A stretch of 64,000 nt of DNA from Acidobacteriota bacterium (lineage in GTDB: Bacteria > Acidobacteriota > Blastocatellia > HR10), in NCBI GenBank assembly GCA_030550025.1, contig JAUQQC010000001.1, positions 62,001 to 126,000 of the forward strand, given 5' to 3'. The position numbers and the translations under genes were made by a program. Shown here one piece after another: positions 42,273 through 45,142 of this stretch. Each line of letters opens with the position of its first letter. Position 1 is the first letter of the stretch. The notes below the pieces were generated by a model. That model ran no database searches and was not told where the DNA came from. It was given only the letters and a program-made list of their open reading frames with translations.

Positions 42273-44036
42273 ATGGAGAAATTGACGATCGGTCACCTTC
42301 GCGAGACGCTCTCGGGGCGACGAGTCTTCGTGCGCATCGATGGCGATGTGCCTCGGCGGGAAGAGACCGGGGAGATCGCCGATGAGTTCAAGCTCCGGCA
42401 GGTGGTGCCGACGCTTCAGTTCCTGATTCAGGCGGGGGCGCGCGTGGTGATCGGCACGCATTGGGGGCAGCCGGAGGGCAAGGTGGTCGCTTCCTGGCGT
42501 GTGGATCCGATCGCCGAACGCTTGAGTCGTCTCTTGGGACGACCCGTTCGTAAGGTGAACGATTGCGTGGGGCGAGAGGTCGAACGTCTTGTGGATGAGT
42601 TAAAGCCGGGTGAGGTCCTGATGGTGGAGAACCTTCGCTTCTATGCGGAGGAAGATTTGGATGATGCCGCCTTCGCCCGTCAGTTGGCCGATCTGGCCGA
42701 TGTGTATTGCAACGATGCCTTTGGGCTGGCTCATCGCGGGCAAGCCTCGACCGTCGGGATCACGCGCTATGTGACGCCGGCGGCAGCCGGCTTGCTTATG
42801 GAGCGCGAACTGCTCATGCTGGAGGCCGTCTTGAAGAACCCGCAGAAGCCGTTCTTGGCGGTCGTCGCCGGCTCGCGCCTGGAGGAGAAGTTGCCCGTCT
42901 TAGAGAATCTCTTGCCTCGCGTGGATCGACTCTTCCTCGGAGGAGCGCTCTGTTTCACCTTCCTCAAGGCGCAGGGATATGAGGTCGGGCGGTCTCCGGT
43001 GAACGCGGCTTTCCTTAAGCTCGCCGAAGATTTTCTCAAGCGGGCGGAGTATGTGCTTGGGAGCCGAGGAGAGATCTATCCGACGGGGCTCGTCTTTCCC
43101 TCGGATTTCGTCGTCGTCGAGGCGGAGGCGTTGGAGCGCGCGCACGGCGATCCGGAGAAGATCGCCGCTCTCCCGCGTCAGGTCGTCGTGGCCTCGGAGA
43201 TCCCGGCCTATGCGGTGGCTGTGGACATCGGGCCGATGACGATCAGCCATCTCGTGGAACTTTTCGATTGGGCGCGCACGATCTTCTGGAATGGACCGCT
43301 TGGGCGATGGGAATGGGCGCCCTTCGCTGAAGGGACGCGCGCGGTGGCCGAGTATGTGACCGAGCGCGTTCCGGCCGAGCGGAAGGACATCCTCATTTGC
43401 GGGGATAGCTTGACGCAAGCCATTCGGCACTTTGGCCTTCCGGTCGAGCGAATTCGTCACTTGAGCACCGGGGGGGAATCGGCGTTGAAATATTTGGCGG
43501 GGATGCCGCTGCCGGCGGTCGTGGCCTTGAACGAACGAGAGCAACCCTCACGCGCGCTCTCGCCGCGGCGCATCCTCGTCCCTGTGGATGGATCACCGAA
43601 TGCGCGATTGGCGGTCCAACGGGTGAGTCAATTGCTCGACGCCGCGCGGGCGGAGATTACGCTTCTCTATGTCGCTCCACTCTCTCGGATCGAACGCAGC
43701 ACGTATGTCAGCCCGGAGCGGGAAGCCGAGTGGCGGGCGGCGCATCAGTTGGAAGCTGAACGAATCTTCGCCGAGGCCAATGCCGAGTTGGCGCGACAGG
43801 GATTGACCTCCCATCGGCAACTGATGGTGCTGGGTGATCCCGCCGAGGAGATCCTCAAGCTCGCCGATCAAATTCCCGCTGATTTGATCGTCATGGGCGC
43901 GCGCGGACGGACGGGGATCTTTCGATTCCTCATGGGGAGCGTCAGCCGCAAGGTCCTGGATCATGCGAAGTGCCCTGTCTTGCTCGTGCGCGTGCCCGAT
44001 GAGGAATTGGTGAAGGCGGGATTGATGGAAGCGTGA
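42273..44036 (+). CDS. Diverged phosphoglycerate kinase fused to a universal stress domain
   Basis: Residues ~1-420 follow the PGK fold: MVENLRF, CNDAFGLAHRGQAS, FLGGALCFTFLKAQGYEVG, VDIGPMTISH, IFWNGPLGRWEWAPFAEGT and HLSTGGESALKYLAG. Several key positions differ from canonical PGK. RVDxNVP reads RIDGDVP, HLGRP reads HWGQP, GGAKVxDK reads AGSRLEEK (Lys to Arg), and GGGDT reads CGDSL. Residues ~431-580 are a complete universal stress domain (RRILVPVDGSPNARLAV, GARGRTGIFRFLMGSVSRKV, CPVLLVRVP). The 587-residue fusion may be a stress- or ATP-regulated PGK, or a non-catalytic paralogue. It follows rpsT. Confidence 0.85.
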   Translation: MEKLTIGHLRETLSGRRVFVRIDGDVPRREETGEIADEFKLRQVVPTLQFLIQAGARVVIGTHWGQPEGKVVASWRVDPIAERLSRLLGRPVRKVNDCVGREVERLVDELKPGEVLMVENLRFYAEEDLDDAAFARQLADLADVYCNDAFGLAHRGQASTVGITRYVTPAAAGLLMERELLMLEAVLKNPQKPFLAVVAGSRLEEKLPVLENLLPRVDRLFLGGALCFTFLKAQGYEVGRSPVNAAFLKLAEDFLKRAEYVLGSRGEIYPTGLVFPSDFVVVEAEALERAHGDPEKIAALPRQVVVASEIPAYAVAVDIGPMTISHLVELFDWARTIFWNGPLGRWEWAPFAEGTRAVAEYVTERVPAERKDILICGDSLTQAIRHFGLPVERIRHLSTGGESALKYLAGMPLPAVVALNEREQPSRALSPRRILVPVDGSPNARLAVQRVSQLLDAARAEITLLYVAPLSRIERSTYVSPEREAEWRAAHQLEAERIFAEANAELARQGLTSHRQLMVLGDPAEEILKLADQIPADLIVMGARGRTGIFRFLMGSVSRKVLDHAKCPVLLVRVPDEELVKAGLMEA

Positions 44037-44037
44037 C

Positions 44038-45087
44038 TCACGGGAGGATGCGGATGCGCCCGGCTGCTCCGGCGGTGATCTCTCCGATGACAGCGGCCTG
44101 CGTGTGACTCTCCTCGAGCGCCCCGCAGAGTGCGTCCACTTTCCCCGGAGGGACGGCAATCAAAAGGCCCCCGGATGTCTGCGCATCGCAGAGGATGAGC
44201 TGCGCTTCTTCGGAGATCCTCGGATCCCACTCCACGAATTGGGTGAGGTACGCATGATTGGCGAGCGTGCCGCCGGGGACGATGCGCTCAGCGACCAGCT
44301 CCCACGCGGCCGCGAGCACGGGGACGCGTGAGAGCCGGAGCGTCGCGCTCACGCCACTGGCCAGGAGCATGTTGCGGAGGTGGCCGAGCAATCCGTATCC
44401 GGTGACGTCAGTGGCGGCGCGCACGCCGATCCGACGCATGGCGTGCGCCGCTGCGCGATTGAGCGTCGTCATGACGCGGATGGCTTCGGCTTCGATCTCG
44501 GGCGAGACTCGCTGGCGTTTAATGCCCGTCGTGATGATCCCCAAGCCGAGTGGTTTCGTCAGGACCAACCGATCGCCCGGACGCGCGCTCGAATTCGGAA
44601 TGATCTCCTCCGGGCGCGCGATGCCGATCACGGCCAGACCATATTTGGGTTCGAGATCATCCACGGTATGTCCGCCGAGGATCACGACGCCGGCCTCGCG
44701 CGCCTTGTCCGCGCCGCCGCGCAGGATCTCGTTCAGCAGATGGAGCGGGAGTTTCTTGGCCGGGAATCCGACGAGATTGAGCGCCAGAAGCGGGTCAATG
44801 CCTTTGGCGTAGAGATCACTGAGCGCATTGGCGACGGCGATCTGTCCGAAGGCGTACGGATCGTCCACGACAGGGGTGAAGAAATCCGTCGTGAAGGCGA
44901 GAGCCGTTTGCTCATCGAGTAAGTAAACGCCCACATCGTCGGCGTCCTTGGCGCCGATGAGCACGCGCGGATCTTCCACCGGAGCCCATGCGCTGAGGAC
45001 CTCGACCAGGTCCTTCTGACTCAGCTTACACGCTCAACCGGCCCCGTGGCTGAACTGTGTCAGCCGAATGCGTTCGGTCTCGGCCAT
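44038..45087 (-). CDS. selD: Selenide, water dikinase - selenoprotein with in-frame UGA
   Basis: SelD makes selenophosphate from selenide and ATP, the Se donor for selenocysteine synthesis. The frame from 44979 to 44038 codes the typical body (TTDFFTPVVDDPYAFGQIAV, GGHTVDDLEPKYGLAVIGIA) but lacks the N-terminus. Upstream on the minus strand the same frame reads M-AETERIRLTQFSHGAG, then TGA at 45036-45034, then ACKLSQKDLVEVL, and joins the body. This aligns exactly with E. coli SelD (RLTQYSHGAG-C-GCKISPK): the UGA is at catalytic Cys17. Full length is 349 residues from ATG 45087, preceded by AGGAGAAG. A SECIS-like hairpin follows the UGA. Confidence 0.93.
44992..45036 (-). other. SECIS-like element just after the selD UGA
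   Basis: Minus strand, beginning at the UGA (45036). An outer helix pairs 45025-45021 (GCTGA) with 44996-44992 (TCAGC). An inner helix pairs 45013-45008 (GGACCT) with 45002-44997 (AGGTCC). The apical loop is GGTCG (45007-45003) and a 7-base bulge sits on the 5' side. The GGU in the loop and its distance of about 26 bases from the UGA fit bacterial SECIS elements such as that of fdhF. Confidence 0.75.
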
Positions 45088-45142
45088 CTCGTTCTTCTCC
45101 TGATGGAGCACGGTCCATACTACGGCACATCAGGAGATCTCG

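Follow-up and report, generated by a model that had tools for sequence, protein, structure and literature searches.

The selD gene of this Acidobacteriota bacterium almost certainly encodes a selenophosphate synthetase with selenocysteine (Sec) as its catalytic residue, the UGA codon at this position being decoded via SelB and a downstream hairpin. At the level of sequence, the genome presents a conserved UGA at the catalytic site, a complete set of SelA, SelB and tRNA-Sec, a putative hairpin and further predicted selenoprotein genes, and from these we infer that translation does insert Sec and that the SelD enzyme is active.

The full-length selD gene (selenide, water dikinase) occupies positions 45087-44038 on the minus strand of the window, the 64,000-nucleotide stretch of DNA that was analysed, and encodes 349 residues plus a stop codon, with one in-frame UGA. 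The minus-strand reading opens with ATG GCC GAG and reaches the active site as AGC CAC GGG GCC GGT TGA GCG TGT AAG; after the SHGAG motif come the TGA at 45036-45034 (residue 18, Sec18), ACKLSQKDLVEVL and the SelD body up to the TGA stop at 44040-44038. A plain open frame begins only at GTG 44979, 36 codons 3' of the ATG at 45087 and already past the active site. Therefore, the first 36 residues, together with the active-site loop, are lost in standard gene calling, for which an open frame of 313 aa (44038-44979, minus strand) is the expected output, and the corrected gene model restores the SelD active site that standard annotation drops. The preliminary description of this DNA had predicted this loss, and its coordinates for the ATG, the TGA and the start of the plain frame proved exact. 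It had also reported a ribosome-binding site, and a Shine-Dalgarno-like AGGAG is indeed present at 45097-45101 on the minus strand, 9 nt before the ATG; this element is variable and absent in some relatives, although the start position is kept. On the plus strand, a convergent gene at 42273-44036 encodes phosphoglycerate kinase (residues 13-410) with a universal stress protein domain (residues 432-573) joined to its C terminus, and its end lies one base from the selD stop.

A full-length profile match was obtained only with readthrough of the UGA. The readthrough protein matched TIGR00476 (selD) over residues 8-314 with 367.9 bits (cut-off 125) and PRK00943 over residues 4-345 with 364.9 bits (cut-off 299). 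Its alignment with the SelD structure PDB 3u0o has no gaps across the UGA site. The catalytic Sec/Cys position and the subsequent Lys of the N-terminal loop are both present, with GUACK aligned to GCGCK, and the UGA stands opposite Cys17 of E. coli SelD (SHGAG-U-ACK here, SHGAG-C-GCK there), as had been claimed from the window alone.

The window belongs to a 3.17 Mb assembly, 98.7% complete, of the class Blastocatellia (Acidobacteriota); its named close relatives are a Blastocatellia MAG, Bacterium HR10 and Bacterium HR08. SelD with exactly one in-frame TGA was found in each of the family's six genomes, including that of the window, at 72-100% protein identity, and in 3 of 3 further genomes of the order with intact selD, giving nine of nine order genes that cover the site; the remaining order genome (G023), with selD cut by a contig end, was left out of this count. 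The residues before and directly after the UGA are kept across the order, as is the start position. Across the class, one in-frame TGA is present in 124 of the 139 matched SelD genes, and three of the other 15 begin 3' of the site. Both the sister family (f4) and Paenibacillaceae have Cys codons at this site.

All three components of the Sec machinery whose presence the preliminary description had implied were detected in the same assembly. SelA (584.3 bits against a cut-off of 268) and a full-length SelB (373.9 bits against 242) are accompanied by a tRNA-Sec gene (75.9 bits), which ARAGORN calls as tRNA-SeC with anticodon TCA (UCA). Among 162 genomes of the class, some of them incomplete, tRNA-Sec occurs in 131 of 138 with SelD versus 14 of 24 without it (Fisher p 8e-6, kinship ignored).

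Other candidate users of Sec were looked for by searching with protein families and by examining a few stretches of the genome, so that the total of three predicted selenoproteins, SelD included, is a minimum. A search with the AhpC-TSA domain returned 16 matches, two of which contain one in-frame TGA, in both cases at the active site. One is a peroxiredoxin in which UGA takes the place of the peroxidatic Cys codon (FTGGU, motif TGGU; L156/L171, G000:C2:186094-186582) and is followed by a hairpin; the other is a peroxiredoxin-like protein with the motif UPFC (L158/L183, G000:C23:7564-8016). Each of these UGAs is kept in 6/6 genomes of the family. The motifs are those of the known Sec peroxiredoxin (TXXU) and peroxiredoxin-like (UXXC) families described in PMC1088965, with no notable difference. 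The presence of two more genes with a conserved UGA at a catalytic Cys site argues that Sec decoding is in use, and SelD would therefore serve at least these two proteins besides itself. Selenouridine synthase was not found in the genome, nor was a Sec formate dehydrogenase: the FdhA-like genes lack an in-frame stop, and the best of them apparently has Cys (ARICHAPS) at what we take, by the FdhF motif, to be the Sec site. In a scan for further recoded UGAs in the window and in the selA, selB and selC neighbourhoods, selD was the sole convincing case; the filter was crude and insensitive, and it missed the peroxiredoxin-like gene in L169 and the peroxiredoxin gene in L170. Altogether, selenocysteine is predicted in SelD and two peroxiredoxin-family proteins of one Blastocatellia lineage.

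The SECIS prediction proposed in the preliminary description was pursued by folding and shuffling, and a SECIS-like hairpin was found 3' of the UGA. This putative bacterial SECIS element spans 44987-45033 on the minus strand; the two arms of its apical stem, AGGACCU and AGGUCCU, enclose the loop GGUCG, which begins 26 nt 3' of the UGA and is small with G as its first base, as expected of a bacterial SECIS. Counted from the UGA, a 51-nt segment has a folding energy of -19.5 kcal/mol (z -2.0 relative to dinucleotide shuffles), and none of 200 synonymous shuffles was as stable as the native hairpin, while a simple stem score alone did not single it out (p 0.11). When the same synonymous-shuffle test was applied to sets of genes, which hold many near relatives and thus do not give independent counts, 59 Sec genes had a mean z of -1.31, with 26 at p<=0.05, versus a mean z of -0.07 and 0/50 at p<=0.05 for Cys genes. 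The codons that follow the UGA also show unusual constraint on synonymous change. Within the family, synonymous identity is 0.81 over the 14 codons 3' of the UGA versus 0.61 in the remaining selD, a value reached in 12 of 336 scanning windows; in the corresponding scan across the order, 3 of 336 were as high as the post-UGA segment. The apical stem is nearly invariant in the family, and covariation therefore cannot be shown; an Rfam search at selD matched no SECIS family. In many other Sec-SelD genes the hairpin lies about 7 nt further 3', with a loop GUN at 33 nt, and its register appears to be shifted in the family studied here. These results support, and stop short of proving, a SECIS-type hairpin 3' of the selD UGA.

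Several other explanations for the UGA were considered. Since TGA is one base from both TGC and TGT, a sequencing or assembly error could have turned an ordinary Cys enzyme into an apparent selenoprotein, a doubt already raised in the preliminary description. However, the same TGA is found in separately assembled genomes with SelD proteins of 72-92% identity, including HRbin10, HRbin08 and H1_Bin_METABAT; its retention across the family and order excludes such an error, to which we assign a vanishingly small probability. Termination at the UGA, with translation of a shortened SelD from GTG 44979 or with a decaying gene, is very improbable as well, even though the GTG frame is what a mechanical gene caller yields. 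The shortened protein would be without the Se-binding loop, and the residues flanking the UGA and the start position would hardly be conserved across relatives. Moreover, the SelA/SelB/tRNA-Sec system present in the genome needs SelD, and the search of this genome turned up no other complete SelD, the remaining matches being distant.

Readthrough in selD could also be explained by a genome-wide reassignment of UGA as a regular amino-acid codon (code 4 or 25), but the genes for SelA, SelB and the molybdopterin oxidoreductases contain no in-frame UGA, selD itself stops at TGA one base from its convergent neighbour, and just two of the 16 AhpC-TSA matches carry UGA, both at the active site. The chance of such a code change is practically nil. 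It could further be proposed that SelD is the sole selenoprotein and that the Sec machinery maintains itself alone, in line with the failure to find a Sec-FdhA or a selenouridine synthase. The two peroxiredoxin-family genes whose UGA is conserved throughout the family refute this proposal at the sequence level; it was dropped, and its probability is as slight as that of a sequencing error.

Under the favoured explanation, Sec at the catalytic position of SelD, SelB carrying GTP and Sec-tRNA-Sec would bind the hairpin directly 3' of the selD UGA, and Sec would be inserted at position 18 rather than translation being terminated. From selenide and ATP, the full-length SelD would then produce selenophosphate for SelA to use in making Sec-tRNA-Sec, and this would supply SelD as well as at least two selenoproteins of the peroxiredoxin family. 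As a complete SelD requires Sec for its own synthesis, one could hypothesise that in this lineage its UGA senses selenium and works as a switch, with full-length enzyme made when selenium is available and hardly any or none under selenium shortage, but we regard this as unlikely.

The Sec/Cys state of the enzyme was traced on a tree built from 106 SelD proteins after masking of the Sec/Cys site; this tree requires three label changes, its bootstrap values had not settled and it contains several long branches. Read most simply, this region of the tree has Sec as its ancestral state, and Cys was acquired by f4, by Paenibacillaceae with their relatives, and by a single Bacteroidales MAG. The tree places f4 as the sister group of the order (support 95/87); f4 has a Cys SelD yet retains tRNA-Sec. 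The SelD motif in f4 (L046, L047, L049-L056) is GCAAK, the second Cys of GCGCK being missing. The Sec-to-Cys switch in this sister family provides a clean pair for testing the contribution of Sec to SelD, and if the selenium switch did exist, f4 would have escaped it via Cys while keeping the Sec system. The other sampled families of Blastocatellia (f5-f7 in the tree) have a different Sec-SelD, only about 41-49% identical to that of the window, and the class therefore holds two distinct SelD types (L057-L066 versus L024-L045).

Knowledge of Sec-containing SelD goes back two decades, and the protein occurs in many other bacteria; the gene described here therefore adds a member, not a new kind. 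Comparative surveys have described bacterial Sec-SelD (PMC1794560, PMC4561486, PMC13188914) and reported it as common (PMC1794560), bearing out the earlier statement that the class is not new; selenoproteins in Acidobacteria were also already listed (PMC1794560). The E. coli enzyme (PDB 3u0o) is homologous over its full length, shares the SHGAG-x-x-CK loop and differs in its catalytic residue, Cys17 in place of Sec18. Compared with the surveyed bacterial Sec-SelD, the single Sec position is the same, while the order has GUACK instead of GUGCK, a variant also present in Chloroflexi and Rokubacteria MAGs, and the hairpin loop of the family is closer to the UGA, by about 7 nt, than that of most relatives.
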